Virus record (IMG/VR): IMGVR_UViG_3300027852_000107
Location: 1-37,361 of that record
Length of the DNA stretch: 37,361 bases
Strand: one strand, 5' to 3'
Source: a virus
Shown: piece by piece, positions 6,141 through 36,288 of the stretch
How the letters are laid out: every line of letters begins with the position of its first letter
How positions within the stretch are numbered: position 1 is the stretch's first letter
The notes under the pieces: model-generated
Told to the model about the DNA's origin: nothing
Database searches by the model: none
What the model saw: only the letters and a program-made list of their open reading frames with translations
Position numbers and translations under genes: made by a program

Positions 6141-6164
6141 CAATAAAAAAAGGAAAAAAGAAAA

Positions 6165-10265: not shown

Positions 10266-10521
10266 CTAACACCCCCCATAATGTTATGATTAAACCAGCT
10301 CCCACCATTACAACACCTGCTATGGCCATGGCTCTTGCTAATTTTTTTTCAGGTTGAGCTTTTATCGCTATGATATCTTTTGTATTCCACTCCACCTGCT
10401 GGGCAGTAGCAGTGAAGTCATTTACTTTATGGAAAATACTATCTATATTCCCATCTATTCTCTCTATACTTTTACCTTGCATCTGTATCATTTTTACTAT
10501 TAGTTCTGTTTTGTCAACCAC
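10183..10521 (-). CDS. Holin-like or spanin-like membrane protein
   Basis: This 112-residue protein starts at GTG 10521, eight bases into the end of the tail-fibre gene, with GGGAAGG upstream. Residues 1-58 form a predicted helix or coiled coil. One transmembrane helix follows at about 62-84 (AMAIAGVVMVGAGLIITLW), then an acidic C-terminal tail. The layout resembles XhlA-type lysis accessory proteins and single-span holins. In T7 a holin gene also follows the tail-fibre gene. The last 83 bases overlap the hydrolase gene in another frame, so the acidic tail and the hydrolase N-terminus share DNA. The lysis role is inferred from topology and position. Confidence 0.65.
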   Translation of the reverse strand: MVDKTELIVKMIQMQGKSIERIDGNIDSIFHKVNDFTATAQQVEWNTKDIIAIKAQPEKKLARAMAIAGVVMVGAGLIITLWGVLDAHENEDEHVEDRVSSSISTDGQMVTD

Positions 10522-13399
10522 CTAACACCTTCCCTTTCACGGTTTTTCGTTCTTTATTTTTCTCAATTTGTTTTAACTCAGCTTGTATTTTTGGATTTAA
10601 TTTAAGTTTATTTTGAATTTTATTATGTTTAACTATTCCTATCTTTTTTATGACAAGAGGAATAACCTGTTTAGCTAAGTTGGTGTCATCATATAACGCG
10701 TCAACCAATTCTACTGAATTGTTGGTAGGAATGTGTATAGATGTTTTTGCGTCTAGCTTAAGATGTAATGTTTTTTCATCATTCGATAATTCTATATCAG
10801 ATACCGTCTTAGACACTTCTTCTTGAGAGTATTCTCCAGTGTGGTCACCATCTAAATCAATAATAGGTGTACCAAGCATTACTGAAAAAGCTCCAGTTTG
10901 TTCATTAAAATCTTTTATTTTAGTAAGAGATGCACATTGTGCCTGCCACATGAAACCTGCTTGCACATGCCCAGCTACAGTTGCGAATGGGTATATACAG
11001 AATCCGTCAACACTAATACTTAGTAGGTACAGTGTGTCTAAGTTATCCTCTATGGTAACAGTTGACAATATAGTAGGGATAACCCTCTTCTTTGTGGAAA
11101 ACTGAAGCATTTGTTGTATAAATTTATCTGTGTCGGTATGTCCTGCCGAAAAGTTATCTAAGTTTTCCTCGTAGTCCCTCTGGTCGATTAGATCAGCAAT
11201 TGCTGCATGTATTCTTTCTGGATTCACAATAGATGAGCCATCTACTAATTGATTCATATTTTGTACAGAAGCAGATTGAAGAGCTGTTATATCTGCAGAT
11301 GAAATTATAGTATTAAAAACTCCTAGATCTGAAAGTAATGCATCACATTCTAAATCGAAAACTCCTGTTTCTTCAGATGCAGTTTGGTAAAAATGCACAT
11401 AGTCTATATCCGCTGTTATGTTGTAGGTGCTCGCTGTCTCATCGCCGAAATGTATTGAGTCAGCAGAACTAGCAGCAGATACCCCTACTAATGATTCCAC
11501 TCCATCAATAAACAATGTCGATACTGTTGTTTTTACTGCTAATCTGTAAGTGTGATATACAGACGCATCTAAAAAATAAGTTAATGTTGTCCCATTATTT
11601 GCAATAGTCACTTTATCACTGTATATTAAGACTGTTTCTTTTTTTGTACCATCATCTGCAACTAAAGTCAAAGCCCCTGTTCCTGCTGTAACACGACATT
11701 TCATGTCAACCCAATACCCATCGGCATTAGAAACCGTCCAATTTGCACCCCCTGCAATTGTGTACACAGCTGTTGCAGTTCCACCAGAACCACCTACCGT
11801 GTCTATAGTTAGTACTCCCCCTGATACTGCACAGTCAGTACCTTCATCTGTACCAGTAAATGCCCATGCTGGAGTGTCGGCAGATGGTAACACATCCATA
11901 TCCAATATAGTGTCTCCAGCTCTTGCATAACCTGAACCAAGAATTAAGTTACACGAATCAGCCCCCACTGTAGCGAGAGTTCCAGAAGCAACCGGAGTTC
12001 CTTCAGAACTACCATCGACATAAACATTTAGTTGGTCACTACCAGCGTTATTTACTTCACCAGTTATAATTATATTATGCCAAGATGTACCTGTTCTTAA
12101 ATCAGTAGTACCAGTGGTTGTACTAGAAGTCCCATCAGACTCCAGTATTGTTGCAATTAACAAACCACTTGAGTTTATGGTTATCTTAAAACTTTTATCT
12201 GTTGTCTCCATAATGGTAGTAGACGCCACTGCTGGAGATTTAATCCAGAATGTTATACTAAACGCTCCAGATAGATCTAAATCAGATGTGACTTGAGATG
12301 ACCCAAAACTGGATTTACCACTTGGTATTACTAATGAAAAAGCTGTATTAGAAAAATCGTATGAACCTAATCCAGTAAATGGTCCGCCAGATGTTGAGAT
12401 ATTAGCCTGCGGAAACTCATATGCATTAGATGAAGTTGCAGGAAAATTAAGAGGATCATCGTTTTGGGTATAATTAGTCACAAGTCCCTTTCGTAATACT
12501 TCTTCTATTGAACTCATTAGTAAAGTAATAGTGAGATCTGACCTTAAACTGACGTCTGAGTCACCATCTTGTGCCAATCTAGCCCAGTATGCTGTTTCTG
12601 TTTCAGGGTTTTGGTTTGTGTTAGAACTTTGTAAAGACTGGAAGCTCCCCACCAAACTAGTTGTTTGGGTAAAAGTAACTATATTTCCTTCAGCATAGGT
12701 AGTCCCTGAACTCCACAGTCCCTCGTTGGTGAAATCTGCTACAGAAGCAGCAGAAGCAGCTGCATTTGTCTCAGCAGTTTCAGCATTTGTCTCAGCAGTT
12801 TCAGCATTTGTCTCAGCAAGTTCAGCGGCAGTCTGAGCTGTTTCTGCATCAGTGGCAGAAGAAGCAGCAGCAGCAGCAGAAGCAGCGGCAGAATCCACTA
12901 CAGCATCGATAGCAGTAGTAGAGTTTTCTAAGTCAGTTCCGCCAGAGTTCCATTGAAGAGCTTTACCTGCTTCTGGTTCCGGCATAGTGATATCACTCGT
13001 CTCACTTGTAGTACCAAATTTAGGGATACGCGAAAGCTCTTCGTCAAACTGCTGAAGAATCATTGTATTTTTATCAAGTCCGTTCTCAAAAGCAGTTTCA
13101 GGTAAATTCCCTTCAGTTGGGAACTCTTCTTCCTGAGTCAAAGCCATTACTCGTTTTATAAAAGAGTCCTCACTGGAAGTAGGTGCTACTACATACGTCA
13201 CAGTACCCCCTTCAGTTACTGCGTTTATTGCTACTGTATAGTCAGTAGTAATAGTTTGAAGAGTAGCCACATCTGTCGATGTGTTAATTTTATATACTTC
13301 AAGATTGGAACTTGCAAAAATTTTGAAATCAAAATCAAAATCAACTTCAGCTCCATCGCCTGATTCTTGTACCTTATTGGTTGTCTCTGTGATAGCCAT
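10514..13399 (-). CDS. Tail fibre with T7 gp17-like N-terminus and lectin-like domain
   Basis: This 961-residue receptor-binding protein attaches to the tail through its N-terminal 150 residues, which match the T7 tail-fibre family (a beta-rich start with VDFDFDFKIFASSNLEVYKI). An alanine-rich coiled coil with three AETNAET heptads follows near residues 190-215. A concanavalin/LamG-like lectin domain begins near 354 (FSITFWIKSP, NVYVDGSSEG) and seems to finish near 700 (DLGVFNTIISSADITAL). An extra beta-sandwich-like stretch of about 190 residues is inserted between those parts. The C-terminus is lysine-rich. ATG 13399 is chosen because GGGGG lies just ahead of it and the upstream gene ends one base before; a longer frame to 13441 lacks support. 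Confidence 0.85.
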   Translation of the reverse strand: MAITETTNKVQESGDGAEVDFDFDFKIFASSNLEVYKINTSTDVATLQTITTDYTVAINAVTEGGTVTYVVAPTSSEDSFIKRVMALTQEEEFPTEGNLPETAFENGLDKNTMILQQFDEELSRIPKFGTTSETSDITMPEPEAGKALQWNSGGTDLENSTTAIDAVVDSAAASAAAAASSATDAETAQTAAELAETNAETAETNAETAETNAAASAASVADFTNEGLWSSGTTYAEGNIVTFTQTTSLVGSFQSLQSSNTNQNPETETAYWARLAQDGDSDVSLRSDLTITLLMSSIEEVLRKGLVTNYTQNDDPLNFPATSSNAYEFPQANISTSGGPFTGLGSYDFSNTAFSLVIPSGKSSFGSSQVTSDLDLSGAFSITFWIKSPAVASTTIMETTDKSFKITINSSGLLIATILESDGTSSTTTGTTDLRTGTSWHNIIITGEVNNAGSDQLNVYVDGSSEGTPVASGTLATVGADSCNLILGSGYARAGDTILDMDVLPSADTPAWAFTGTDEGTDCAVSGGVLTIDTVGGSGGTATAVYTIAGGANWTVSNADGYWVDMKCRVTAGTGALTLVADDGTKKETVLIYSDKVTIANNGTTLTYFLDASVYHTYRLAVKTTVSTLFIDGVESLVGVSAASSADSIHFGDETASTYNITADIDYVHFYQTASEETGVFDLECDALLSDLGVFNTIISSADITALQSASVQNMNQLVDGSSIVNPERIHAAIADLIDQRDYEENLDNFSAGHTDTDKFIQQMLQFSTKKRVIPTILSTVTIEDNLDTLYLLSISVDGFCIYPFATVAGHVQAGFMWQAQCASLTKIKDFNEQTGAFSVMLGTPIIDLDGDHTGEYSQEEVSKTVSDIELSNDEKTLHLKLDAKTSIHIPTNNSVELVDALYDDTNLAKQVIPLVIKKIGIVKHNKIQNKLKLNPKIQAELKQIEKNKERKTVKGKVLGG
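12763..12825. repeat. Three tandem 21-bp repeats in the tail-fibre gene
   Basis: Copies lie at 12763-12783, 12784-12804 and 12805-12825. The first two are identical and the third differs by one base. Each copy codes for one seven-residue AETNAET heptad in the fibre's coiled coil, so gain or loss of a unit would stay in frame and change shaft length by a heptad. Confidence 0.9.
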
Positions 13400-13400
13400 T

Positions 13401-16400
13401 TTAATATGCCCCCTTTTTAAGTGATTTTGTTTTCTTTTCACCTTTTAAAATTTGAGTAACTAATGGAGTTCCAGTTACTTTAGCTGTAATTTTCACCGCA
13501 TTTTTTATTGCAGTTTCAGTGGTTCTTGATTTTTTTGCTCGAATAACATCTTGTACCAAACTATCTAATGGTGTGGTTGATCCAAAATCTTGGAATAAGT
13601 GCCCAATAAAAGGAACCCCACCAAATGTAGAATTTAATACACTTTGTATCATCTCTATTGGGTCTACGTCTAGGCTTCTTTTTTTAATCACTGCCATTAA
13701 ATATGCTGGTATCAGTATAGTCATTACTCCGCCTTTCATGAATTTAGCAAAAGAACCGAAAGTTTTATCCCCTCCAAATTTTTGATACTCTTCAAACATT
13801 ACATTAGGGTTTTGGTTTAACTGGTTTTTAAAAGTTGTATATAGTTTTTGCAGCTCACTTCCTCTGAAAACCCCTGGTAAGTGCAAAGTGCCTCCCATTG
13901 GTTGAGTGTTTCTTATAAGTTCATCAGCTAAGTCTATCGCTACTTCTTCCGATAACCCACTCATCCAAGCATCTTTATACACGGCTATCCATAATATCGT
14001 AGTAGTAACCTGATCTGCTTTTTGAATAGGGATCATCCCCCCTTCTTTAAATTTCTGAAACCAAGTTGATACGTCTCCTATAATTCCAGCGGCTTTCTTT
14101 TGAGATAATATCTCTATCATTTCTCTTTCAAAAGAAGAAGGTCTATTAGCCATAAGTACAGACTTACCTGCCGCAAACCTGATAGCTGCTCTTGGATTTG
14201 TGAGAAATATAGCAGTTTCTCTAGCCACACTAGTCATTCCTGCCTGATTCATCCCAGTGAAAATAGATACAGGTTGCCTAGCCATCGATGTTAAGTTATA
14301 CCCTAAAACAGCTGTCACATAGTTTGTTCTTAAGAATCTAGCCACCTTATCGAAAGCTGTTATCGCCGCTCTGTTCCCACCATATGCAACATCTTTTGTC
14401 CATATGTCTAATTGGTTCCAGTACTCCTGTCCATGAGTGTCGACTATAGCTTTTTTCACACTGACATCATTTAAGTATTTAACTACATCTCTGATAGCTG
14501 GTGTAAACGCCTTGTGGTGCTCTACCCTTTTCCAATTCTGTAATATATTTTCTAAGTATGAGAACTTCTTAAATGCTAACTCAGACCCACCTCTTGTCTT
14601 AATAAACCCTTTCGCTGTCCCTGCCTTTCTTACTTTACTTCTTGCTATAGCTTCTGCAGTTATTGCTTCTCTTGGTGTAAATCCTTCAGTTAGCCCAAGT
14701 ATAGAAAAGTAGTTAGATGTTTTTTCCAACCTGGTCCCTGCCATTGCCATATGTACTTCATTAAGTTTTACCCATTGGTCGTTCTCGTAAAAATCAAACA
14801 TGTCATGGACTGCCTGTTTTTCAGCAGGTGATAATGCATCTGACAGTAATTTAATGTCAGTAGACGTCAGCCCAGACCCTTTTAAATGTGCTAAACTTTC
14901 TGGGTTAAAACTATGAGCATACACAAACATCATTGTATCTTTAGTCACACTTTTGAATCTACCAACTTTATGTTTTTTACTTACCATTTCAGTTATATCT
15001 AACTCTTTATGGATATCTTTTACCTTGTCTAAAGTTCTTCTCCCTTCCTTCATCTCACTTTTTGCTGCGTCCCACATACGTTTCCAAAGTACTTTTGTAT
15101 TAATACCACCTTTCTTAAAAGAATCTAAGTTTTTTATGAGCCTTTCTGGGCGAATATTTGCGAGTACAAATCCTTTCGCCTTTGTAATTGCTGTGGCTAT
15201 CTTTCCTTTTTCTACTAAAGAAGCCTCAAAAGCAGTATCTGTACTTAACATCTCCCCTTTAGTGATATTGGATATCCCTTCTTTTGCGATCTCACCAAAA
15301 GATCTCTGCTCTGCTTTAGCTAATAGTTTACCTTTTATAGAACCTAAATGCCGTAAATGTTCTATAGCTTTATCAATCTCCATCAACTCAGTGAATAGTA
15401 AATTCTCAATTGGTACCTTACCGAGATCATCTATTAGCTCTTGAGGGATATTGATCATCTCTCCGGTGGCTTTGGCTTGTTCCATAAACGATCTTAATCT
15501 TTCTCTTTTTGCTAACGTTTTAGTCGTTCGTTTTTTTAAGTTGTACAGTTCTTGTATCTGCTCTATTTGGTCTTTATATCCTATTGGCGTACCCTTAGAA
15601 GGTGGTTTGCTAATTCTGGCGACTATCCTTTTAGTTTCTTTTTTAATGAATGCCTTAATACGTTTACCTTCTGTTTGCATATAATTCTTCAACTTGTCTT
15701 TCTGTTGCTGTACAGCTTTACCTTTCTTAAACCATTCTTTGGTCTTACCTTCTTGAGCTTTGTTTATTATATCAAGCAGTTGATTCTCGTTAAGTGTTTC
15801 AATATTTTTAGTGCTTTTAATATTCAACATATCATACATCTTTGTCCTAAAATCTTCTATCATTGTGACCATTTCTTGTTTAGCTTCTGGTGTTTTAGCT
15901 TCTTTAATAAGCTCTTTCTTAACCTCTGGTGTAAATTCTGGTTTAGTAACTTCATCGATAGTTACTTGCTCTATTCTTTCTGCAGTTTCAACTTCATTGA
16001 TAGCTGCTTCTTTTGCCATATACGCTGAGTCGTCTTTAAAGTGTTCCACTAAATCAGGATTACTTCGTATAACTTTATGACTAACTTTACGTCCCTCATC
16101 AATAGCCTTTATGACTGCGTCTGTGTGGTCATTCATTATGTCCTGTACATTTGTCTTAGTCGCTGTACCTTTTTGTTGTGCACGCACCGCATCTGTGTAT
16201 TCATTAAGAGGTAGTGCAGCAGGTTTCTCAACCATTGCTTCTATCTCCTGTTTACTTTTATCAGCAAGAAGACTCTTCTCTTTAACTTCAGGTTTTGGCT
16301 TAGGTTTAGGTGTGACTTTAGGTTTAGGTTTAGGCTCAAAAACGACATTAGATACAGTCTTAGCTCCTCCCCCAAGAACACCACCAAAGGCAGCTTCTTT

Positions 16401-24487: not shown

Positions 24488-24647
24488 AGTAGTCTCCATT
24501 TTTTTTTAAGTTCAAAACCATTTTAATCAGTCTCGATACCCGTTTAAACGGACGCTACCTAGTCATGTCAGTGACATATCTGGATAGTTTAACTATCAAC
24601 AAGCGGACGCTGTACCATGTACAGAGATACCCACTAAATACCCTTAT
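24488..24647 (-). promoter_or_regulatory. Structured 5' leader of the capsid gene
   Basis: This gene-free stretch holds four compact inverted repeats: 24610-24624 (6-bp arms, loop CAT), 24583-24597 (7-bp arms), 24565-24577 (6-bp arms around one base) and the perfect palindrome CCGTTTAAACGG at 24540-24551. CGGACGCT occurs twice (24549-24556, 24604-24611), and GATACCC twice (24535-24541, 24626-24632) with a third partial copy at 24638. With transcription starting near 24641 these would form a chain of hairpins in a leader of about 150 nt, ending at the ribosome site 24493-24497. It could stabilise mRNA, be a processing site, or control capsid translation. I know no named RNA family that fits. 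Confidence 0.6.
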
Positions 24648-25821: not shown

Positions 25822-27549
25822 TTACTTCGAATTTTGTCCTTGTATAGACGCCTGCCCCTGCCCGATGTTACGGACAATCTCAGATTGTTCTCTTGCATTA
25901 TCTAACTGCTCTCGCTCTTCTGCAATTTGATTTCGTGAATCGCGTATAGCTTCTACTTGTTCTTTAATTTTTAAGAGTTTGGTAGGTGCCCCCACCAATT
26001 CAGCATACATTTTAATTGCCTCATCAGCATCTATATTATCAATCATGTCTGCTTTTATCGAAACATTCTGTAGTGCAAAATCAAAAGTGGAAAGTATACC
26101 TGTTACTTCTTCACTTTTTAATACTCTAGCCGCTGGAGATATATACTGAATTGTATACGCCTCTTTACCTTCTACCATTCTTTGAACTATGATATCAGGT
26201 ATGTACATTGGCTCTATGCCTTGCTCCAATAATACTAACTCTTCTGGACTTCCTGCTACCACTCCCATTAATCCTTGTTTTAGCAGTATGTTAAAAGTTC
26301 TATTAATTAGTGGTGTGAATAATTCAGTAGTCTGTCTTGAGAAAATGGGTCCTAAAGAATCCCCTCTGATCTTATTTCGTATTTGTGCTTCTCCGAGAGT
26401 CATTCTCGTTTCATTATTGAGGTCTAAAAGCCTATCTAAAAAGAAAGCATTCATTATTGAATTCTGTATGTCTATGAGTAGTTGCTGTGCACTTTTGAGT
26501 TCTCCTACTGTGAATACCGGAAAGATCATTTTATCCGCTGAAGATATCCTTCCAGAGGGATTAAATACGTTAAGTGCTCCTGCTGATGTATCTATTACTC
26601 CTCCACCTAATCGCCCATCATCTAATACTGCCAATGGGGGATCCATTTGTTTCTCAATAGCGATAGTTATTGCTTCTTTAATAACATTAGCTTCAATGAT
26701 ATCTGGAAGAGCATTCATTGCAAAAGATCTACCATACACCTCTTTCATAGCTTTAAAAAATCTAGCAACCGCAACTGGCATTTCTTCAAAACCACTTTCC
26801 CTCAGTATCTTTTCGTCATTAAATTCTATATGAATAGATGCAATCGGCATAGCTTTATTGCCAAACTTAGTACGCTCTCTGTCAATTCTAGTTTCTATAG
26901 CATGTAGAACATCCACTTTCCTCTCTGCATCCCCTTTAGTAAATGCATCCCGTGACGTTGCACTTATGTTTTCAATCCCGTACTCTTTAACTAAAGAACG
27001 AATTGTCATAGATTTATAATTATATATTGTGTCTATTGATCCATCAGGGCCTTCATCGAGATACATAGTTTTTACATCCCATGCCTCGTACCTGATAGGA
27101 GGTTCACCCAATATATCTTGCTCAAAAATTGCTACCCCACTAGTTCCAAAACCTGTTTGATCAGGCATATACTCACCAAGGGCTACCCCTAGTCTGGCTT
27201 TTGGGTTATCCATAATATCTGTTTGCGTTTCAGTTATCTTTTCAAAATATTCTTTAACTTCCGCCAAAGTATTATCAACACCTTTAGGTGCTACAAATCT
27301 AAAAGACTCTGCCCCATTAGGCCATAGCATCCCCAGTAAAATAGACGATGACGACATGTTTGCACTTGGCCCAGTACTGTCAAATAACTCTCGATTTAAA
27401 AACTCTCCAGGAGTGATAGTAGTTGTGAATTGCTGTTTTCTTGTCATTACAAATTCACCAATTGTCTGGTAATGGTCATTCCAAACTGACTTATTACTCT
27501 GCATATCTTTAAATCTTAATTTTATTCTTTTTATTTTATCAGATGACAT
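25822..27549 (-). CDS. Portal protein (head-to-tail connector)
   Basis: This 575-residue protein matches the podovirus head-tail connector family. It has RIKLRFKDMQSNKSVWNDHY at the start, then RELFDSTGPSANMSSSSILLGMLWP, the segment GFGTSGVAIFEQD, and the wing and stem parts with ALPDIIEANVIKEAI and DDGRLGGGVIDTSAGALNVF. A dodecameric portal ring is the packaging motor dock and DNA exit channel. The C-terminus is a Glu/Gln-rich coiled coil (REQLDNAREQSEIVRN). The ATG overlaps by one base (TAATG) the stop of a tiny upstream gene whose last codons supply the AAGGAGG ribosome site. Confidence 0.92.
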   Translation of the reverse strand: MSSDKIKRIKLRFKDMQSNKSVWNDHYQTIGEFVMTRKQQFTTTITPGEFLNRELFDSTGPSANMSSSSILLGMLWPNGAESFRFVAPKGVDNTLAEVKEYFEKITETQTDIMDNPKARLGVALGEYMPDQTGFGTSGVAIFEQDILGEPPIRYEAWDVKTMYLDEGPDGSIDTIYNYKSMTIRSLVKEYGIENISATSRDAFTKGDAERKVDVLHAIETRIDRERTKFGNKAMPIASIHIEFNDEKILRESGFEEMPVAVARFFKAMKEVYGRSFAMNALPDIIEANVIKEAITIAIEKQMDPPLAVLDDGRLGGGVIDTSAGALNVFNPSGRISSADKMIFPVFTVGELKSAQQLLIDIQNSIMNAFFLDRLLDLNNETRMTLGEAQIRNKIRGDSLGPIFSRQTTELFTPLINRTFNILLKQGLMGVVAGSPEELVLLEQGIEPMYIPDIIVQRMVEGKEAYTIQYISPAARVLKSEEVTGILSTFDFALQNVSIKADMIDNIDADEAIKMYAELVGAPTKLLKIKEQVEAIRDSRNQIAEEREQLDNAREQSEIVRNIGQGQASIQGQNSK

Positions 27550-27698
27550 TATTCCTCCTTTCTCGATTTTATCTCGAGTCTTATCCTTGATAATACTTCT
27601 TGATTTTTTTGAAGTTTAATATTTAGTTTCTCTTGAAAAACTAAAATATTATATGCTATTACTTTTAACTCATCAGTGGTTTTCTCTTTAACGCTCAA
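27549..27698 (-). CDS. Small coiled-coil protein, 49 codons, TTG start
   Basis: A frame of 49 codons runs from TTG at 27698 to TAA at 27549-27551. The product (KEKTTDELKVIAYNILVFQE then KLNIKLQKNQEVLSRIRLEI) has heptad-like spacing. It resembles small phage proteins built on an ELKxxAYDI(I/L) helix followed by a second helix. GGAG about ten bases upstream supports TTG. It overlaps the preceding gene by eleven bases, ends in TAATG with portal, and carries the portal ribosome site in its last codons, so coupling is likely. Its function is unknown. Without it this 138-base gap would be unusual in so tightly packed a block. Confidence 0.7.
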   Translation of the reverse strand: MSVKEKTTDELKVIAYNILVFQEKLNIKLQKNQEVLSRIRLEIKSRKEE

Positions 27699-27936
27699 GA
27701 TCTGTCAACTCCTTTAAGTACCGCTGGTATCTTGCTAATTGGTTATACTTTGTGTATAACTCTTCTTCAAAATACTTAGTTTCTTTTTCAATTGTAGGGA
27801 TTAACTTTTCAGCAAGACATCTTTTTAAAAATCTAGTTTTTGCTTTTGCATCTTTTGATATTACAATCTCTTGATTTTCTAAAAAAAAACTATAAGGAAG
27901 TACCTTAAGTAACTCATTAATTAATTTATCTAGCAT
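27688..27936 (-). CDS. Small helical hypothetical protein
   Basis: I do not recognise this 82-residue protein. It is helical and charged, with an amphipathic N-terminus (LDKLINELLKVLPYSF) and a lysine/glutamate/tyrosine-rich C-terminal coil (EEELYTKYNQLARYQRYLKEL). AAAGGAGAG precedes the start; the same 13 bases ahead of and including the ATG also precede the Bbp19-like gene. It is followed, with overlap, by the 49-codon gene and then portal, so a head-assembly accessory role is possible. Confidence 0.65.
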   Translation of the reverse strand: MLDKLINELLKVLPYSFFLENQEIVISKDAKAKTRFLKRCLAEKLIPTIEKETKYFEEELYTKYNQLARYQRYLKELTDLER

Positions 27937-27954: not shown

Positions 27955-28533
27955 TTAATGTTTGTCTGTGTGCTCGTACCAATCTAATTCCAATGACACC
28001 CAAGTATTAGCGTAAGTTGTTATAGACGCAACATATTTAGTATTTGGTTTTAGGATAAACTCATTAATTCCTCTCGCTCCACCACCAGTTAATGTTTTAC
28101 CATTAACACCAGTTCCCCCCGTTCTTACTGTGTATAAAGTAGTAGCTCCATCCGTTGTCCCTCCTGTTGGGGTTCTTGTAATAATTGTACCAGCTGTCGT
28201 TGGTGTTCCGACTCTATTTCTATTCACTTCAGTTAAAGCAGTCCCATCCGTTCTGTCACTCCCCTCTGTAATAAGGACAAGTATCTCACCAGTTCCGTGA
28301 ATATTAAAAAGCATATGTGAATATGTTGTAGTATCCGGTGTTGTAATCTGCCATTTCATCGTAGTAGTGTCTACATTTTGAACATCACAACAATTAAAAC
28401 TACTACCAGAATGTATTTCATGATGTGCGTACTCTATTGTTTGCAAAGAATTAGTAGACGCATCAATTCTTATGTCGTCAGTTTCACCTGCACCGCTCCC
28501 CCATCTACCAACTATATTTTTCCATCTACCCAT
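27955..28533 (-). CDS. Phage structural protein, HHEIHSGS type
   Basis: The protein has 192 residues, is beta-rich, and shows the distinctive TIEYAHHEIHSGSSFN segment (about 32-47), a pattern I associate with small structural proteins in many podovirus and siphovirus genomes. It is followed by YSHMLFNIHGTGEIL and a Gly/Thr-rich loop region, and ends in a strand pair (NTKYVASIT, NTWVSLELDWYE). The probable role is a head- or tail-associated jelly-roll-like component. There is no signal peptide, in contrast to several neighbours. The start follows one base after the upstream stop. Confidence 0.68.
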   Translation of the reverse strand: MGRWKNIVGRWGSGAGETDDIRIDASTNSLQTIEYAHHEIHSGSSFNCCDVQNVDTTTMKWQITTPDTTTYSHMLFNIHGTGEILVLITEGSDRTDGTALTEVNRNRVGTPTTAGTIITRTPTGGTTDGATTLYTVRTGGTGVNGKTLTGGGARGINEFILKPNTKYVASITTYANTWVSLELDWYEHTDKH

Positions 28534-28534
28534 A

Positions 28535-28897
28535 TTAGTACCAGCCCTCCGTTGTTTCGTATACTATAATAATAGACTCGCTATCATCTAGTGTTATGCT
28601 AGAGTTAACTCCTATCAAATTCTCTGACCCATCAGGAGATATTGTTAATTGATTCCCTGATGTTCCAGTATTTACAATTCTATACTCAGTCCCATTATTG
28701 CCTTCAGGAAGAGTGATTGTAAACGCTCCTCCGTCTGTATCGCAGAATACGTTATGATGCTCATCAGTTAAAGTCAGATTAGCTGTCGCCCTGATCGTAT
28801 GAAAACGTACTCTCCCATTAACCATTAGGGTCCCAAACGTTGAACTGTCTGAGCTGTCTTCAACACTAAAATCTGCGTATATATTTACTGAAGCCAT
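28535..28897 (-). CDS. Beta-rich virion-associated protein
   Basis: The protein has 120 residues with a pattern widely seen in phage fibre and spike modules. LTLTDEHHNVFCDTDGGAF opens a strand series, followed by TITLPEGNNGTEYRIVNTG, NQLTISPDGSENLIG and a final aromatic WY. This resembles a small beta-prism or jelly-roll unit used for appendages. GGGGAG precedes the start. It lies in the fibre cassette between a signal-peptide-bearing beta-helix protein and the HHEIHSGS-type protein. The exact role is unknown. Confidence 0.68.
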   Translation of the reverse strand: MASVNIYADFSVEDSSDSSTFGTLMVNGRVRFHTIRATANLTLTDEHHNVFCDTDGGAFTITLPEGNNGTEYRIVNTGTSGNQLTISPDGSENLIGVNSSITLDDSESIIIVYETTEGWY

Positions 28898-28906
28898 ACG
28901 CTCCCC

Positions 28907-29965
28907 TTACGTTTGATTTATCTCAGCTATGTCAGCTTTTGCAACTGTATTTACTTTTGCCATATTTGCAGCAGCTACACTATTAATTTTATGAGTCCAT
29001 CCGCCACCAGCGGAAACATACTCATCTGCCCCAATATCCCATGTTCCCGTTCTTGTATCTCCATCAATATCATCTGTATAAGAAATCCCGAAACCTGTCG
29101 TACTATTCCCACCATAGTCCAAAGCTCCTGTATCTGTTGACTCTAAATGATAATCATAGTTAGTGTCATCAACAAAAGAAAATGTTTGATTATATCTGTT
29201 ATTTGCTCCTGAATCAATGTCAGATTGAGCGTTATCTTCTGTCCAAGAACTATAATTGACAGTTAAAGTATTCCCTTCATAGGCTGCCAAAAAAGCATCA
29301 GCACTAGTTATTATAACGTTATAAAGAGTACATGTCGTATTTGCTCTTACGATAAATCTGCCTGTTGAAGTACAATTATAAAAAAGATATGTTAAATCAG
29401 TGTCATTACAGTCAATGCCATTAAAAATAGTATTGTATACCCACATTGAAGCAGCAGAAGTCGACCCCGATAAAAAACTGCCTTTGAAAATACAACTATC
29501 TACCGTGACATTACCATAAACTTGTTGTATTGACACGCTTACTGTTACGTCTATTTGCAAACTTCTGAAAACAGTGTAATCTTCATACGATAATATATTT
29601 GGATTTGTTGTCATATCCATTCGATAGTGAGATGTTGACCAAGCTCCTGTATCATTATCCCCAATAACTGTTACATTATAATCTTCACTTGTTGTAAAGC
29701 CGTTAAGAAGCAATCTCCCGCCAACATTATCTTCTGTTGAGCCTGAACAATATACAGACATTGTGTCCCCGCCACCATCCGTTAAATCCTGCCCCTCTGC
29801 GGCTTCCCATTCCACTATTCCTGCATAAGCTCTATTATCTCCAGTTGTTGCATTAGTAGTTCCGTCGCCCCCTGATGTGCTTGCAGTATTTACATATCTT
29901 TCTATTAATGCCGAATACCCTGAACAAGCAAATAAAAGAATTAAGATTAATAAATATTTTTTCAT
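28907..29965 (-). CDS. Signal-peptide-bearing beta-helix protein
   Basis: The mature part of this 352-residue protein reads like a right-handed beta-helix, with repeated short strands rich in Asn, Thr and Asp (NVTVDSCIFKGSF, NTIFNGIDC, YNCTSTGRFIVRANTTCTLY). It ends with HKINSVAAANMAKVNTVAKA, a repeat form common in phage structural proteins. The N-terminus is a Sec signal: two Lys, then LLILILLFACSGYSA. Cys 14 in LFAC could be a lipoprotein site, with the -2 Phe being non-canonical. ATG 29965 is chosen because GAGGAA precedes it and the upstream stop ends one base earlier; an ATG at 29989 lies within the upstream gene. It may be an exported or envelope-anchored adhesin or depolymerase-like protein; catalytic residues are not evident. 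Confidence 0.68.
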   Translation of the reverse strand: MKKYLLILILLFACSGYSALIERYVNTASTSGGDGTTNATTGDNRAYAGIVEWEAAEGQDLTDGGGDTMSVYCSGSTEDNVGGRLLLNGFTTSEDYNVTVIGDNDTGAWSTSHYRMDMTTNPNILSYEDYTVFRSLQIDVTVSVSIQQVYGNVTVDSCIFKGSFLSGSTSAASMWVYNTIFNGIDCNDTDLTYLFYNCTSTGRFIVRANTTCTLYNVIITSADAFLAAYEGNTLTVNYSSWTEDNAQSDIDSGANNRYNQTFSFVDDTNYDYHLESTDTGALDYGGNSTTGFGISYTDDIDGDTRTGTWDIGADEYVSAGGGWTHKINSVAAANMAKVNTVAKADIAEINQT

Positions 29966-29966
29966 A

Positions 29967-30395
29967 TTATTCCTCTTTTGTGACAACATTACTTTCTAAT
30001 TGTGCTATAGTGATTGTTATCTCTCTATCCGCTTCTAATTGATCTTTTAATTCTTGCGAAAAAGCATCTAAGTCAAAATGATATTTTCTTTTTCTATCAT
30101 ACTCTTTTTCAGTTAAATTAGTACTTGCTAATTCGCTCATATATATTAAAGCATCAGCATAGGATAAAGATTCAATTTTTATAAAATAAAACGCAGAATT
30201 TACACATTTTTCTTTTAATGTTCCATCTTTATAGACTAGAACAATATCACCTTTTTTATAATGCGTTTTGTTTTCTTTAATCTCGCTTGCATTCATGTTC
30301 TCTTTATATGAATAATGCTCTTTAGCATAAACTAAAAATTCAGCTGAATAAGCAACATTAACAACAAATATTAAAAATAATATTAAATATTTCAT
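29967..30395 (-). CDS. Small protein with Sec signal peptide, unknown function
   Basis: The protein has 142 residues. MKYLILFLIFVVNVAYSA is a clear signal peptide. The mature part contains YKKGDIVLVYKDG and, later, FYFIKIESLSYADALIYM, a pattern I know from small phage proteins normally lacking a signal peptide and thought to be virion or assembly related. The C-terminus is a charged helix ending TKEE. ATG 30395 follows the upstream stop by one base and has GGAGG upstream, while a frame from 30431 would overlap the previous gene further. Neighbours on both sides also carry signal peptides. Confidence 0.65.
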   Translation of the reverse strand: MKYLILFLIFVVNVAYSAEFLVYAKEHYSYKENMNASEIKENKTHYKKGDIVLVYKDGTLKEKCVNSAFYFIKIESLSYADALIYMSELASTNLTEKEYDRKRKYHFDLDAFSQELKDQLEADREITITIAQLESNVVTKEE

Positions 30396-30396
30396 A

Positions 30397-32094
30397 TTAA
30401 GATACCTCCACCAATACAAGACTTGGTGCAAATTTTATTACGTCAGCAGTTAATGCAATACCAACAACTTGAACTTGATCGCCCGTCCCACTCGGGGCAG
30501 TTGCTGTTAAAGTTCCAACTGTATCACTAACATATATAATTGCTCCAGGGGTCCAGTCCCATGTGTCATCTCTGATATACCCGTCAAATAAAATTGTTTT
30601 TGTTCCAGTACCAGTTTCTAATGCTAATGCTATACATGGCATTGTTGTTGCCGCATCTGCATCAGCTTCAATATAATTCCCATCAGTGTCTAAATGCAGA
30701 GCCGACGCAATTCCGTATGTATTTGCATCAACCGTAACACTTGCAATATTTCCTGCTCCTGTGTGATCTGACGCTGGAGCTATATCCCAAGTTGTATGAG
30801 ACGCATCTCCTTGAGTTGAACTTGCAATAGTTGGAGTTGTTAACGTTGGAGAAGTGAAAGCTGGTGATGCTCCACTTGACACATCTTGATCTAATCCATC
30901 TAAAAAAGCCCATTCATTTGTATCTACAGTATTTGCACCTATTTGAACTGACGTTGCAGTTGCCACTCCAATTGTAGGTGTAGTTAAAGTTGGAGATACA
31001 GAGAAAACCATTACTCCAGTTCCCTCTTCATCCGATATATTAGCTGCAATTCCTGCTGAATTTGTTAAAGAAGTTATTACCCCAGTTGTTGTAGCTACCC
31101 TCATGATACCAGTAGATAGAGCAGCTAAAGCTTGCTCTGCTGATAAATCACCATCTGCTGTTTGAGTTATATATGTCGCGTCTGTAGGTGCTCCTCCGCC
31201 GCCCGATACAACTTCAAATGTTGGTGCTGCAGAAGCTCCGTTAGATTGAAGAACTGTTCCGTCAGCCCCGAATGCTAATTCGATTAATGTTGCACTCCCA
31301 TTAGAGTAAAATACTCTCCAGTTAGTTGCAGTAAGTCCTGTCGTCACTGGTACGCCTGTAAAATTAGTTCCTGTAAAAGTAGGAGTCGCCCCACTTGTCA
31401 CATCTTGATCTATATAACTATGATCGGATCCGTTGTTGCTCACATGGCTATATGCCGCCGCAAAATTAGTTTCTTGAGTTGTCGTAATTATGGCATTCCC
31501 ACCGCCGTCAGAAAAATTATCTGCTGTAAAAGTTGGGGCTGTTCCGCTTGTTACTGATTGATTTAACCCATCTAAAAAAGCCCATTCATTTGTGTCTACT
31601 GTATTCGCACCTATTTGAATTGAAGTCGCAGTTGCTACGCCAATTGTAGGTGTGGTTAAAGTTGGAGAAGTTCCAAATACTGCTAAGCCTGTTCCTGTCT
31701 CATTAGATAGAACTCCTGCTAATTGAGCCGAAGTTGTTGCCGCAAATACACTTAAATTATCGTTTACGTTAGGGACACCAACACCCCCTTCAGTAACCAC
31801 ACCGCCTTCTAAAGTTCCTGATACAGTCCATCCCCCTGCAATTGTGCCTAACGCATTCCCCCATGTTAAGGTTACGTCCGTCCCTGATACATCAAAAGTC
31901 CATATGTTACTTGCATTCGCCCCGTCAGACCAAGTGATTGCATCTAACTGTGCCGGTGCAAAAGTTAATGTTGTGGACACTCCTGCGACATCAGCTTTAG
32001 TTAATCCTACACCAGCTGTCAGTTCTTTATCGGCATATGATGTCGCACATATCCCGCAATACATAATGATAATTAAATACTTAAGATACAACAT
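30397..32094 (-). CDS. Fibre-like protein with signal peptide and repeats
   Basis: The protein has 565 residues. The N-terminus (MLYLKYLIIIMYCGICATSYA) looks like a Sec signal cleaved after SYA. The rest is Gly/Thr/Ala-rich and resembles phage fibre shafts, with two copies of a block containing SPTLTTPTIGVATATS and QIGANTVDTNEWAFLDGL. The C-terminal 150 residues resemble a head- or fibre-associated beta domain (HLDTDGNYIEADADAATTMP, DTWDWTPGAIIYVSDTVG). ATG 32094 is chosen because AGGAGG lies five bases upstream; GTG 32100 overlaps that site. It overlaps the upstream gene by 14 bases. Confidence 0.72.
   Translation of the reverse strand: MLYLKYLIIIMYCGICATSYADKELTAGVGLTKADVAGVSTTLTFAPAQLDAITWSDGANASNIWTFDVSGTDVTLTWGNALGTIAGGWTVSGTLEGGVVTEGGVGVPNVNDNLSVFAATTSAQLAGVLSNETGTGLAVFGTSPTLTTPTIGVATATSIQIGANTVDTNEWAFLDGLNQSVTSGTAPTFTADNFSDGGGNAIITTTQETNFAAAYSHVSNNGSDHSYIDQDVTSGATPTFTGTNFTGVPVTTGLTATNWRVFYSNGSATLIELAFGADGTVLQSNGASAAPTFEVVSGGGGAPTDATYITQTADGDLSAEQALAALSTGIMRVATTTGVITSLTNSAGIAANISDEEGTGVMVFSVSPTLTTPTIGVATATSVQIGANTVDTNEWAFLDGLDQDVSSGASPAFTSPTLTTPTIASSTQGDASHTTWDIAPASDHTGAGNIASVTVDANTYGIASALHLDTDGNYIEADADAATTMPCIALALETGTGTKTILFDGYIRDDTWDWTPGAIIYVSDTVGTLTATAPSGTGDQVQVVGIALTADVIKFAPSLVLVEVS
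30886..30996. repeat. Copy 1 of a 111-bp direct repeat in the fibre gene
   Basis: This copy matches 31558-31668 over 111 bases with scattered differences, many of them silent, and no gaps. The repeated block encodes the SPTLTTPTIGVATATS / QIGANTVDTNEWAFLDGL unit of the fibre-like protein. The two copies lie 672 bp apart. Confidence 0.85.
31558..31668. repeat. Copy 2 of a 111-bp direct repeat in the fibre gene
   Basis: Partner of the copy at 30886-30996. Recombination between the two would remove 672 bp (a multiple of three) and shorten the fibre-like protein in frame. Confidence 0.85.
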
Positions 32095-33475
32095 CTTCAC
32101 CTCCTGAAGTTACATTTTCGCCACCAGACACAACTTGTTCAAGGAAGGCTGCTCCCCAATCCTGTACTAGTACTGCTGATACATAAAGTTCTAATTTTTC
32201 AGCTACTGCATTATACTCGAGGTATGTACCCTCTGCAAGAGTAATTCTGTTTGCTGTAACTGTCTCGACTACCGTTAGATTATCTGAAATAATTGTGTCC
32301 ATGTCAATAGCTAATCCTAATATATTGCTATCTTCACCTACAATATGGAAATAATCGTCAGTATCATTAATCTGAAAAGCACCATATTTAGCAGAGCTAG
32401 CGGCACTAATATACCCATAGATTTTAAAAAGTTTGTTTTCTCCAACACTAGATTCACTAAAAGCTGATACAGCCCCAGTAGCACCGCTGTTGAGAAACAA
32501 GTCAGTAGCACTATTAAAAAGTATTCCATTGTCGAAATAAAACCTCCCATTGATCTCTACATTATTGTTAAAAGTATTCACTTTAAAAAGCTCTGAGGCA
32601 GAAGTACTTTCTACTACAAAAGCTGTATTGGACTGTGATGTTATCTTAAATTGATGGTCATATCCTTCATAGGTTAGATCTCCATCATCGGTCTTAATAA
32701 CTTCAGCGTATACAAAATCAGTTTCTAAAGTCTCAATTGTCCCGACAACTGCGTCAGTTCGAACTAAAAGGTATATCTTATTAGAGTCGACATAGTCTTC
32801 TAAATTTGAGGTATAAGTACCAGATATAGTGTTATGTGTACCGCTGTTTGATGTCCCGACAGATACCCATGTTGTATTAGTGAAATCCCATATCTTTAAC
32901 GAATATGTAACTCCACTTGTATCTCTCCCTCGCCACAGTACTTTGAGAGACGATATATCAGTTGAGGCTTCATAGATATCAAATTCAAATAAGAATCCTC
33001 CGTACTCGTTCGCCGGTGTGGTGAACGTTACTGCTGTGTCATTATTAGTTGCTACATTGGTATAATCAGAGATCTCAGAGCCACCCCAGGTCGCGAGTGG
33101 CTCTTGGTTAAGATCTCCTGTTTGGGAGGAACTTTTTGTGGTTATTTGTGATGAGAGAGATGGATTATAGACATACTCATACAGGTACCTCTTCGAATCA
33201 CCACTTGGTGACATCGAAAAAATATCTGAGAATATGTTCAAAAAAGCTAAACCCGACGCCCCTAATGTGTATGTCGAGTCTATTTGCGGATATACATTCT
33301 TAACGTTAATGTCTGTAAGGAAAGGATTTGTAAATATGTCCTGTACGGACATAGTTTTTACTTTTCTTACAGAAGTGTCAAATACAGCAAAGTCATCATC
33401 AAGGGCTAAATCAGGGGTGCTTAGTCTATCTATCTCTGTCGTACCAAAGTACGCAAGTTGATTACCAGCTCCCAT
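32081..33475 (-). CDS. Fibre-like virion protein without signal peptide
   Basis: The protein has 464 residues and is beta-rich. The N-terminus (NQLAYFGTTEIDRLSTPDLALDDDFAVFD) resembles the attachment parts of phage appendages and echoes the short repeat of the neighbouring 92-residue protein. The middle (about 100-260) looks like a carbohydrate-binding-like beta-sandwich (EYGGFLFEFDIYEA, KIYLLVRTDAVVG). The later part has the phage fibre pattern (LFKVNTFNNNVEINGRFYF, DNLTVVETVTANRITLAEG). It ends with repeated Ser-Gly-Gly-Glu. AAAGGAT precedes the ATG. It is likely a head or tail appendage. Confidence 0.7.
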   Translation of the reverse strand: MGAGNQLAYFGTTEIDRLSTPDLALDDDFAVFDTSVRKVKTMSVQDIFTNPFLTDINVKNVYPQIDSTYTLGASGLAFLNIFSDIFSMSPSGDSKRYLYEYVYNPSLSSQITTKSSSQTGDLNQEPLATWGGSEISDYTNVATNNDTAVTFTTPANEYGGFLFEFDIYEASTDISSLKVLWRGRDTSGVTYSLKIWDFTNTTWVSVGTSNSGTHNTISGTYTSNLEDYVDSNKIYLLVRTDAVVGTIETLETDFVYAEVIKTDDGDLTYEGYDHQFKITSQSNTAFVVESTSASELFKVNTFNNNVEINGRFYFDNGILFNSATDLFLNSGATGAVSAFSESSVGENKLFKIYGYISAASSAKYGAFQINDTDDYFHIVGEDSNILGLAIDMDTIISDNLTVVETVTANRITLAEGTYLEYNAVAEKLELYVSAVLVQDWGAAFLEQVVSGGENVTSGGEDVVS

Positions 33476-33491
33476 TATTTATCCTTTGTTA

Positions 33492-33770
33492 CTATGCAGC
33501 TCCAAAATATGTAGCATCTACTTTTACAAAAGTACTAGCTGATGCATCCCACACTGGTATAAAATCACCAGAAGCGATTGCTGCTCCAGAGAGTGTATCG
33601 AGATTATCGATTGATTTTATGTTCATGATGTCCATTGCTGGGAAAGTTTTAACAATACCAGTTGACGCATCATATACTGGTACTGTGTCAGATGTGGCAA
33701 TCGCTGCTGCAGTTAAGTCAGATAATTCGTCCATTCCTTTATACGCTAAATTTTTTTCGTCATCAGCCAT
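33492..33770 (-). CDS. Small virion protein with internal duplication
   Basis: The protein has 92 residues made of two similar halves. DELSDLTAAAIATSDTVPVYD (residues 14-34) aligns with DNLDTLSGAAIASGDFIPVWD (56-76), each followed by a short strand. This unit is common in phage fibre-like proteins, where it forms repeated attachment or shaft elements. The preceding ribosome site is GGAGG. It stands just upstream of the 464-residue fibre-like gene, whose N-terminus has a related segment, so the two may assemble together. Confidence 0.7.
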   Translation of the reverse strand: MADDEKNLAYKGMDELSDLTAAAIATSDTVPVYDASTGIVKTFPAMDIMNIKSIDNLDTLSGAAIASGDFIPVWDASASTFVKVDATYFGAA

Positions 33771-33794
33771 AATATTTTTCCTCCATTAAGATTA

Positions 33795-34166
33795 TTAATT
33801 ACTTATTTTTTCTGCGGTAAAACTGTAAGCTGCCCCCGAATCGGTATCAAACCAAATCTGTAATGCATTCCCTTTAGTTGTTCTGAAGTCTAAAGGTAAT
33901 CCACCTAAGGTGTTAAATGTTGTGTTAGCAGCATGATAGTAATGTGGACCAACTCTAGTGGTACCGTCCAAAAGATAAAAATTGCAAGCATTCTGTATTG
34001 ATATAATCATATGCTTAATAACAATAGCATTTGCAGCATCTGCTGCCACAAGTGACGTTATACTACCTGAACTTGCTTTTGTTACCCAAGTTAGCCCCTT
34101 TGGTCCTGTACCTGCATATACTAAAACTGTAATTAGCAATACTGCTAATAAAAGATATTTCTTCAT
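33795..34166 (-). CDS. Small beta-rich protein with Sec signal peptide
   Basis: The protein has 123 residues. MKKYLLLAVLLITVLVYA is a canonical signal peptide, with VYA before the likely cleavage site. The mature part resembles small phage decoration-type beta-sandwiches: KHMIISIQNACNFYLLDGTT, HYYHAANTTFNTLGGLPLDF and TTKGNALQIWF, which is the familiar T-x-x-G-x-A-L strand. GGAGGG precedes the start. The combination of an export signal with a structural-protein fold is odd. It is the first of four such proteins in the cassette. Confidence 0.7.
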   Translation of the reverse strand: MKKYLLLAVLLITVLVYAGTGPKGLTWVTKASSGSITSLVAADAANAIVIKHMIISIQNACNFYLLDGTTRVGPHYYHAANTTFNTLGGLPLDFRTTKGNALQIWFDTDSGAAYSFTAEKISN

Positions 34167-34190: not shown

Positions 34191-34613
34191 TTAATTACCT
34201 AAAAGTTTTTTACGTCCGACATTGGGAGTGCCAAGACCTTCAGCACTTCTTTCACCAGATTTAATTAAAGCCAATCTTCTCTTCCCTCTTGCTTTTCTTT
34301 TGTCACTCGCAAGTCTATCTGCTTCAGCACTTTTCGCTTTTTCTGCTTCACGTTCTGCAGATAATCTGTCTTTTTCTGCTTGAATTTCTTGGAGTTTCAT
34401 TTCGTTGTATGCACGAGTTTCTTCTAAAAAAGATCTAGCATTTTCAGCTTGTTCTTCTTGGAAAGATATAAATTGTTGTTGTTTTCTCTCAGTTGCTTCC
34501 TTCTGTTCACGTTTCTCTACACCAAGTTGCCATCTGTCATCCGCACGTTGTCTTCGCTCTTTACCACTCTTCCCCATAAATAAATTAGTTACTTTTTTAA
34601 CTACTGACGACAT
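34191..34613 (-). CDS. Coiled-coil phage protein downstream of terminase
   Basis: The protein has 140 residues, is highly charged, and has a long Glu/Lys/Arg/Gln coiled coil (about 18-105) and a C-terminal basic tail ending GRKKLLGN. Phage proteins with a similar coil and a terminal RxxLLG-type tail often lie between terminase and portal genes and are thought to be head-internal or assembly factors. No enzyme motif is visible. AAGGAGT precedes the ATG, and TerL ends 16 bases upstream. Confidence 0.68.
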   Translation of the reverse strand: MSSVVKKVTNLFMGKSGKERRQRADDRWQLGVEKREQKEATERKQQQFISFQEEQAENARSFLEETRAYNEMKLQEIQAEKDRLSAEREAEKAKSAEADRLASDKRKARGKRRLALIKSGERSAEGLGTPNVGRKKLLGN

Positions 34614-34629
34614 ACTACACTACTCCTTC

Positions 34630-36288
34630 TTACCTAGATCTGTACTTCATACTAGATGAGTTATTCCTGCTGCTGTTACCTGAATTCTTTCTCAACCTGT
34701 TTAGTGTTGAGAGAGAACTTTGATTCTGATTACTTTTATCAAAACTATTTTTCTTTGTCAACCTTTTTTTTGCCATTCCTAAAATTCTTCTAACAGGATA
34801 TGCAAAAGTAAGTGCTAACGCATCTAAAATCCCAGGGGACTTACCATAGTCTTTTTTAATTTTTTCTTTTGGTACAAGTTTAAGAAGACCATTTATAGAG
34901 TCGACTGCTGGGGGCACACACGTGAGATCTGCCATCACTTCGTCGGAATCAGGAACATTAGCCTGTCCATCACCAAAAACGTTGTGTATCCAATCCCTGA
35001 CGGTGTGGATCATCTCAGATCGTTTATTGGCATACGTGTCAAATTCCATAGCTCGCTCGTTAAAATGAACGCTTAATACAATATCACCATACCCCAATTG
35101 TTTTAATCTGGAAATCACTCCGTAACCATATGCCACATCAATAAAACATTTATCTATATTCTCTCGGTCTATGATTGCGGCAAGTTTAGCTGCCAATAGC
35201 ATTGGCTCGATATTGTTAAATATTATAGGAGTATGCATATGCAGTCCCTGTCTCTGCACTACCACGCACTCATCTTTACCTTCTCCGGACGGGTCAACTC
35301 CTAGTATTTTTGGGGCGTGTGGATCTTTTGTAGTAGCTTTTCTAGCTTTAACAATCTTCTCAGCACTTATGAGTGAAGCTGCAGAAGTTTGAAACGCTTC
35401 CATAACATGAGAAGGGTATTCTCGTCTAAACATCCAATCACCAAGTTCTACTATCTTTTTCCTTCTCCAGTATAACTGGTTAGAGGAAAGTTCGTATAGT
35501 GCGGCAATTTCCATTTCTTCAGTAGTAGGGGTAAAGTCATTGGGTGGAGTGTCGGTATAATCTTCGATCCAGAACCAAGGGACAAATACCAGTTTATACT
35601 CAGATCGTCCATGAAGTGCATTCATACATCCACGATAAAACTCATTGCCCATACCTCTTGCAGTGGATTCAAAAATTATAGATGTTTTAGGACGATCAGG
35701 TACAGTTTGAAGTACCCCTGCTATAAGTTCTTTCTCATTCTCCCATAGGGCTACTTCTGATCCATGAAATTCTTGGAACGTTCCTCCTACCCCAACTTTA
35801 GCTGACCCAGCAGTCCCTACCACATATGAGCTGTCTATTTCAGAGAACTTCATAATACGAGTATTTGCTACATCTGCAGTTGGTCTAAGTGGCTCTGGAC
35901 AATGCTCGTGATACCTTTTGACCATTCCATAAATATGCTCAGTTGTTGAAGCAATATGGGCGATAGTAAAGGCGGATCTACCTGGGGATCTAACTTTCCA
36001 GTAGATTCTTCCCTGAGCGTATGTCGTTCCACCCCACTGTCTAGCTTTAACTAAGAAGATACGGACTTTGCCCATTGTCTGCACTTGTTTTTCGATAGTA
36101 TCGTGTAAATGTTGTTGAGCACGATTGAATATGAATGGAACAATATCACCATCTTTATTCTTGATTTTAAGTACATGTTTTGCAAAATACTTAAAGTCGT
36201 TCGTCAATAACTCGTGTATCCGTCGCTGCTCTGGGGGCAAAGTGGGGATGTTAAGAGGTGTATTGTTCGTTAGGTGTTTACTACTCAT
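34630..36288 (-). CDS. terL: Terminase large subunit (packaging ATPase-nuclease)
   Basis: This 552-residue protein drives DNA into the head. The ATPase has Walker A KARQWGGTT (81-89), an acidic Walker B region HGSEVALWE (175-183) and the coupling motif FESTARG (206-212). The RNase H-like nuclease shows GVDPSGEG (Asp 332), FIDVAYG (Asp 384) and GILDAL (Asp 489), giving the expected three acidic residues. The C-terminus is Ser/Asn/Arg-rich and probably disordered. Its start overlaps the stop of the small-terminase candidate (ATGA). Confidence 0.93.
   Translation of the reverse strand: MSSKHLTNNTPLNIPTLPPEQRRIHELLTNDFKYFAKHVLKIKNKDGDIVPFIFNRAQQHLHDTIEKQVQTMGKVRIFLVKARQWGGTTYAQGRIYWKVRSPGRSAFTIAHIASTTEHIYGMVKRYHEHCPEPLRPTADVANTRIMKFSEIDSSYVVGTAGSAKVGVGGTFQEFHGSEVALWENEKELIAGVLQTVPDRPKTSIIFESTARGMGNEFYRGCMNALHGRSEYKLVFVPWFWIEDYTDTPPNDFTPTTEEMEIAALYELSSNQLYWRRKKIVELGDWMFRREYPSHVMEAFQTSAASLISAEKIVKARKATTKDPHAPKILGVDPSGEGKDECVVVQRQGLHMHTPIIFNNIEPMLLAAKLAAIIDRENIDKCFIDVAYGYGVISRLKQLGYGDIVLSVHFNERAMEFDTYANKRSEMIHTVRDWIHNVFGDGQANVPDSDEVMADLTCVPPAVDSINGLLKLVPKEKIKKDYGKSPGILDALALTFAYPVRRILGMAKKRLTKKNSFDKSNQNQSSLSTLNRLRKNSGNSSRNNSSSMKYRSR

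Follow-up and report, generated by a model that had tools for sequence, protein, structure and literature searches.

A fibre-like cassette between the terminase and portal genes

The virus record IMGVR_UViG_3300027852_000107 from IMG/VR (G000), which in its full length of 37,361 bases is the window analysed here, carries ten genes between those for the terminase large subunit (TerL) and the portal (34191-34613 down to 27688-27936). Products of this cassette are beta-rich or fibre-like, and the fibres of tailed phages are usually viewed as virion parts that are assembled in the cytoplasm. Four of the ten genes, however, encode proteins (P1, P4, P5 and P6) that begin with a predicted signal peptide (Table 1). 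An earlier reading of the window made without database searches (the sequence-only reading) had pointed to these four proteins, and its genes, coordinates and strand are as it described them.

Judged by its genes, the window virus is a short-tailed phage of the epsilon15/HTVC010P type that infects bacteria: it has a phrog_332 portal, tail tubular proteins A and B and a matching major head protein. The nearest GenBank relative by portal is MW202485.1 (Manatee Spring), with 40% identity. Early genes on the plus strand include those for a VapE-like primase-polymerase, an SNF2 helicase and a family A DNA polymerase. No integrase was seen in the window, and the phage is apparently lytic.

Table 1. 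Genes of the cassette, other structural genes of the window and a group of small signalled proteins from related loci. Predicted cleavage is marked by an arrow; SP, signal-peptide score
Feature	Coordinates	Strand	Description	Evidence
P1	33795..34166	-	123 aa; signal peptide MKKYLLLAVLLITVLVYA↓GTGPKG; small domain	SP 21.7
P2	33492..33770	-	92 aa; no signal peptide; related to the P3 N-terminus	SP -2.3; E 2e-5
P3	32081..33475	-	464 aa; fibre-like; no signal peptide; GH114_assoc-like stretch	SP -16.9
P4	30397..32094	-	565-aa fibre; signal peptide MLYLKYLIIIMYCGICATSYA↓DKELTA; tail-fibre repeats; phage-fibre C-terminal domain	SP 13.6; phrog_12121 E 3e-10
P5	29967..30395	-	142 aa; signal peptide MKYLILFLIFVVNVAYS↓AEFLVYAKEH; predicted small alpha/beta fold; conserved partner of P6	SP 17.8
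P6	28907..29965	-	352 aa; signal peptide MKKYLLILILLFACSGYS↓ALIERYVNTA; predicted right-handed beta-helix	SP 22.1
P7	28535..28897	-	120 aa; beta-rich; no signal peptide	phrog_31104 E 7.6e-8; weak PF25692
P8	27955..28533	-	192 aa; no signal peptide; relatives in L077, L106 and L006
TerL	34630..36288	-	Terminase large subunit; upstream border of the cassette	phrog_2 E 2e-27
Portal	25822..27549	-	Portal/head-tail adaptor; downstream border of the cassette	phrog_332 E 4.7e-100
Major head protein	23603-24499	-
Tail tubular proteins	22374-23012 and 20041-22365	-
Virion tail fibre	10514..13441	-	Separate fibre; T7-type N-terminal domain; no signal peptide	SP -11; phrog_1640 E 9.4e-18; phrog_5510
Small signalled proteins	L032 7019-7429; L033 2670-3113; L041 7122-7472; L061 1033-1446; L077 1817-2239		116-137 aa; signal peptide

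Four proteins of the cassette carry signal peptides

Signal peptides were called with a transparent log-odds scorer of our own for the amino-terminal (n), hydrophobic (h) and cleavage (c) regions, which was checked on an annotated stretch of Escherichia coli K-12. In this control Tsx scored 26.8, PsiF 19.7 and PhoA 16.0, and some transmembrane proteins reached 11-16 (AraJ 15.9, PhoR 14.8). At the starts chosen in the sequence-only reading, the four cassette proteins scored 13.6-22.1, compared to less than 6 for the remaining 35 of the 39 genes in the window; the score of P4 is 14.8 if translation begins at an in-frame GTG two codons upstream.

The four signals are not a product of chance, because pseudo-starts and shuffled N-termini almost never score so high. 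None of 1021 pseudo-starts inside late-gene proteins reached 13.5 (maximum 11.2), and when the first 30 residues of P1, P4, P5 and P6 were shuffled, the observed score was equalled in 0, 1, 0 and 0 of 500 trials each. Among distant genes in related loci, 7 of 493 (1.4%) score at least 14; at this rate, the probability of finding four signalled genes among ten neighbours is ∼8e-6, which bears out the earlier argument that several cases in one operon are not coincidental. In three annotated phages, a score of at least 12 is reached by 4 of 169 genes; one of these four is an annotated Rz-like spanin, and none is annotated as a fibre gene.

The sequence-only reading also held that the best ribosome site selects exactly the start that exposes each signal. 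The starts are indeed well placed: AGGAGG stands 7 nt ahead of P1, and P5 and P6 each start one base behind the TAA of the preceding gene, and there is thus little space for a longer conserved N-terminal domain. For P4 the site does not single out one start, since the spacing of the AGGAGGT just upstream suits the ATG and a TTG one codon downstream equally; the signal is kept from both.

All four proteins have a positively charged n-region, an h-region of 8-15 residues and small residues at -3 and -1, as is typical of Sec substrates cleaved by signal peptidase I. Across the proteins of this and related modules the h-region is short (median 10 residues), and residue -1 is A, S or G in 26 of 27. 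P1, P4, P5 and P6 are very probably exported by the Sec pathway of the host. The Cys of LFAC in P6, suggested earlier as a possible lipobox, was rejected as such: aligned relatives put the cleavage behind this Cys, which then lies at -5 and not at +1 as in a lipoprotein cut by signal peptidase II, and the F at -2 is unfitting.

P5 and P6 recur as a pair that is signalled jointly or not at all

A search of related phages for the same arrangement, which the sequence-only reading had proposed, found the P5-P6 pair repeatedly, both with and without signals. Relatives of P6 occur in 104 IMG/VR viral contigs, of which 80 were fetched for comparison, and in none of 50,697 GenBank phage records. Nearly all homologues found are in phage contigs; a single match without a signal, in a bacterial metagenome-assembled genome (L116), says little on the host of the window phage. 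The P5 protein of the window alone retrieved nothing from IMG/VR, but alignments of its relatives led to a family of ∼49 non-redundant loci, marked by AELLVxAKxHW and GDIVVVxPDG, many of which adjoin P6 relatives.

The domain is directly preceded by a signal peptide in ∼16 non-redundant P6 relatives, while most of the others start with Met and the domain. The signal status of P5 agrees with that of P6 in all 42 loci in which both genes are separate and scorable (6 with both signalled, 36 with neither; Fisher 1.9e-7, not corrected for kinship), although one of the six, L057, has a marginal P5 score of 12.3. The unsignalled P5 MAELLVRAKPHW compares with A↓AELLVRAKPHW in the signalled form, and the unsignalled P6 MATITRYVNPG with A↓ATITRYVNPG. 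The unsignalled forms thus begin with Met and the residues behind the cleavage site, and the signal is a precise add-on.

Four contigs (L055, L086, L089 and L101) encode P5 and P6 as a single fused protein with one signal at its start. The fusion junction of L055 and L089 keeps a KKCFA↓AEFL stretch, which looks like the remnant of a lost second signal. Too few synonymous and non-synonymous changes were available for a comparison within the L055 and L089 signal. The fused protein of L055 retrieved nothing from GenBank phages. At the level of sequence, the agreement between partners, the exact boundary and the fusions are what one would expect if a genuine export signal served a unit of two proteins.

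Directly behind the fused signalled P5-P6 of L101 lies a 559-aa open reading frame (8228-9907) with a type IV prepilin-like N-terminus (MTHKKGFTLMELLVGGLVAFIMIF).

In signalled modules the gene upstream of P5 usually encodes a signalled fibre

In the signalled modules, the gene before P5 usually codes for a signalled fibre that is ∼490-800 residues long and, like P4 of the window, contains phage tail-fibre repeats (L027, L028, L040, L055, L065, L087, L088 and L089). The gene just upstream is signalled in 10 of 14 signalled modules (Fisher 7e-14 against the 7 of 493 distant genes) and in 14 of 44 unsignalled modules (Fisher 6e-12 against the same genes). The C-terminal domain of P4 is 39.8% identical to the end of an annotated tail fibre without a signal in Flavobacterium phage immuto.

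Several phages with unsignalled P5-P6 encode small signal-peptide proteins of 116-137 aa (Table 1), some of them FN3-like by eye, in or close to the place upstream of P5; besides the fibre genes, these may form another group of exported phage proteins. In L031, a 523-aa signalled beta-helix-like protein (5845-7416) lies directly upstream of an unsignalled P5-P6 pair.

The module is accessory and its signals change repeatedly

A tree of 71 P6 domains requires 12 changes of signal state by parsimony, of which at least four are forced by well-supported branches; signals have therefore been gained or lost repeatedly. The contigs with signalled modules come from phages of several kinds, with phrog_332 portals in L027, L028, L040, L055 and L086 and PF04860 portals in L087 and L101, and the portal lies on the same strand as the module in every record in which it was found. 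The position of the module varies, from between terminase and portal in the window to far downstream of the portal in L040, and the terminase relatives L003, L025 and L026 have no cassette between TerL and the structural gene that follows. The variable position of the module and its absence from these relatives indicate an accessory element that shifts between late regions. A search of 18 signalled-module records for tyrosine integrases (PF00589) found none, a weak negative as these are fragments, and lysogenic conversion was rejected on this ground.

P6 is predicted to be a beta-helix of the sugar-lyase and tailspike type

Structure prediction, also suggested in the sequence-only reading, gave well-defined models for both partners. 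The AlphaFold model of P6 is a right-handed parallel beta-helix of the pectate-lyase-like class (predicted local distance difference test, pLDDT, 82.6; predicted template modelling score, pTM, 0.81), with low confidence over the signal region; the beta-helix ends in WDIGADEY and is followed by a C-terminal helix. Its best fold matches are polysaccharide lyases of families PL6 and PL9 (Z 16-17, best 16.6), followed by phage fibres and spikes (Z 13.5-14.5), the biofilm lyase RbmB (Z 14.2) and the periplasmic depolymerase VexL (Z 13.8), in alignments (Z 13-17) that span about 200-236 residues. Nine of 53 P6 relatives match the NCBIfam model choice-of-anchor Q (NF041518) and some match Pfam Beta_helix; P6 of the window matches no family model above cut-off, NF041518 included. 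From the model, we are confident that P6 is a beta-helix of the sugar-lyase and tailspike type, although sharing of the fold does not show enzyme activity. P5 is predicted to form a small alpha/beta domain (pLDDT 85.4, pTM 0.77), for which a fold search against the PDB returned no match.

An exported adhesin or depolymerase as the favoured explanation

We lean towards the view that P1 and P4-P6 form an accessory late module for a Sec-exported adhesin or depolymerase that acts on the host envelope. Of the options in the sequence-only reading, the best supported is that adhesins or hydrolases are exported to the envelope or outside, given the cleavable-type signals, the exact boundary and the agreement between partners. 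The host Sec machinery would export P1 and P4-P6, and signal peptidase I would trim their signals. Mature P4, P5 and P6 would then form a fibre-adaptor-beta-helix complex outside the cytoplasm, a tailspike-like adhesin or depolymerase that is left out of virion assembly in the cytoplasm, and this complex would bind or trim glycans of the infected cell, either in its envelope or outside it. The most likely gain would be that other phages cannot adsorb and that progeny are not trapped on their own host surface or on debris; alternatively, the surrounding polymer would be opened, as by a released exoenzyme. For the exact role we infer receptor masking, debris clearance or post-lysis loading as candidates.

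By a similarly slight preference, we suggest that many uncultivated tailed phages carry an exported module of fibre, adaptor (P5) and beta-helix (P6) that occurs in two interchangeable states. These would be a cytoplasmic (virion-type) and a Sec-exported state, probably switched by exact joint gain or loss of the signal in the partners, and phages may in this way have repeatedly put their own means of adhesion to use outside the cell.

Several points weigh against this interpretation. The scorer behind the signal calls is home-made and is a weak point of the analysis. Tree-independent P5/P6 pairs are few (2-4), all of them concordant. The concordance of P4 is not absolute, as L123 has a signalled P4-like gene, whose product has the same C-terminal domain as P4 of the window, before an unsignalled P5. 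Finally, signalled P6 proteins have fewer Cys than unsignalled ones (1.45% versus 2.14%, p 8e-4), but Cys content was dropped as a mark of an oxidising compartment because matched close pairs are inconsistent, and we treat the difference as confounded by kinship.

Among the alternatives, it is conceivable, though we would not expect it, that the mature proteins gather in the periplasm or medium as a released exoenzyme or decoy that acts on biofilm or capsule polysaccharide and aids the progeny. The match of the modelled P6 to polysaccharide lyases and the choice_anch_Q and Beta_helix matches of its relatives would suit such a function, and a freely released capsule depolymerase aids engineered T7 on capsulated hosts (PMC3564837); in mixed populations, however, such a public good is selected against (PMC3564837).

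The main rival, which we consider unlikely, is post-lysis loading, in which the exported complex would fold in the periplasm and attach to virions only at lysis, and would thus be a part of the particle that is put together outside the cytoplasm. It would account for the likeness of the unsignalled forms in other phages to ordinary virion fibres and for a module on the late strand with the portal. The unsignalled relatives also lie beside virion-like genes, although this does not prove them to belong to the particle. Against the rival stand a T7-type fibre that the window phage has in any case, mature proteins in which no domain known for docking to virions was recognised, and close relatives that manage without the cassette.

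That the genes are moron cargo, host-derived secreted adhesins that convert a long-lived infected cell, is improbable. The cassette is an accessory insertion, and secreted proteins of bacteria include some with choice-of-anchor Q domains, but the genes stand in the late strand among virion genes, their homologues are almost confined to phage contigs, and the signalled-module records yielded no integrase. Still less probable is that the hydrophobic N-termini are not export signals but anchors retained in membranes or, an option of the sequence-only reading, in virions. Transmembrane segments can equal the weaker signals in our scorer, as AraJ and PhoR do, but the short h-regions, the signal-peptidase-I sites and the presence or absence of the segment exactly at the domain boundary, in four proteins of one cassette, disfavour it. 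An unusual appendage assembled across the membrane, also proposed earlier, has no positive evidence.

Relation to known systems

Phage proteins that are exported are known, and so are beta-helix tailspikes. A search of the open-access full-text literature (subscription journals were not covered) turned up no description of fibre modules that are exported by Sec and have interchangeable virion-type versions. The closest functional parallel is Llp of T5, a small superinfection-exclusion lipoprotein that blocks FhuA from the periplasmic side (PMC9586334). Llp and, as we infer, the module share the export of a phage protein by the host and an envelope-side block of re-adsorption to infected cells and debris (PMC9586334), but the signals of the module are of the non-lipid type, its cargo consists of fibre and beta-helix proteins, and exclusion by it is a proposal.

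The tailspike of Pam1 (7eea) and the fibre of Agrobacterium phage 7-7-1 (9rkv) share the predicted fold of P6 (Z 13.5 and 14.5); beta-helix tailspikes and depolymerases are virion parts, however, and P6 has a Sec signal and a separate conserved partner, P5. The endosialidase exoenzyme of engineered T7 is likewise an enzyme for envelope polysaccharide that is unattached to the particle (PMC3564837), an activity that for P6 is a proposal, but it is engineered and released at lysis, while the module is natural and has export signals (PMC3564837). Signal-arrest-release (SAR) endolysins and spanins (for example in JG068, PMC3765740) are also late phage proteins that use host Sec export; these are lysis proteins with retained anchors or lipid modification, and no lysis domain is shown by P1 or P4-P6. 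Secreted bacterial choice-of-anchor Q proteins resemble P6 through the relatives that match NF041518, but the module has a phage context and no bacterial anchor was seen.

If the interpretation is right, the recurrent joint export of fibre, adaptor and beta-helix would show that adhesins are deployed outside the virion. The unsignalled versions are natural controls, and receptor masking, debris clearance and post-lysis loading could be tested by comparing the two forms. The module would also be a source of candidate secreted phage depolymerases, and annotation pipelines that call each fibre-like gene a virion protein would have to check N-termini.

Other genes of the cassette and minor observations

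No relatives of P1 were found in IMG/VR or among GenBank phages. The GH114_assoc-like stretch of P3 matches PF14741 above cut-off (E 5.9e-6). P2, whose gene spans 32081-33770 together with that of P3, is a short paralogue of the N-terminal domain of the latter (32% identity over 73 residues, E 2e-5), and in L088 and L012 a domain of similar appearance stands directly behind a signal peptide.

The 9.1-kb IMG/VR contig L002 encodes a portal C-terminus, a head protein and a tail tubular protein B that are identical in protein sequence to those of the window, and is thus the same phage assembled in a second record. The terminase matches in G013 (the record of L088, 26803-28362), G008, G010 and G018 contain in-frame stops, in G013 one TGA, five TAG and three TAA, which may reflect an intron, recoding, decay or an alignment artefact.

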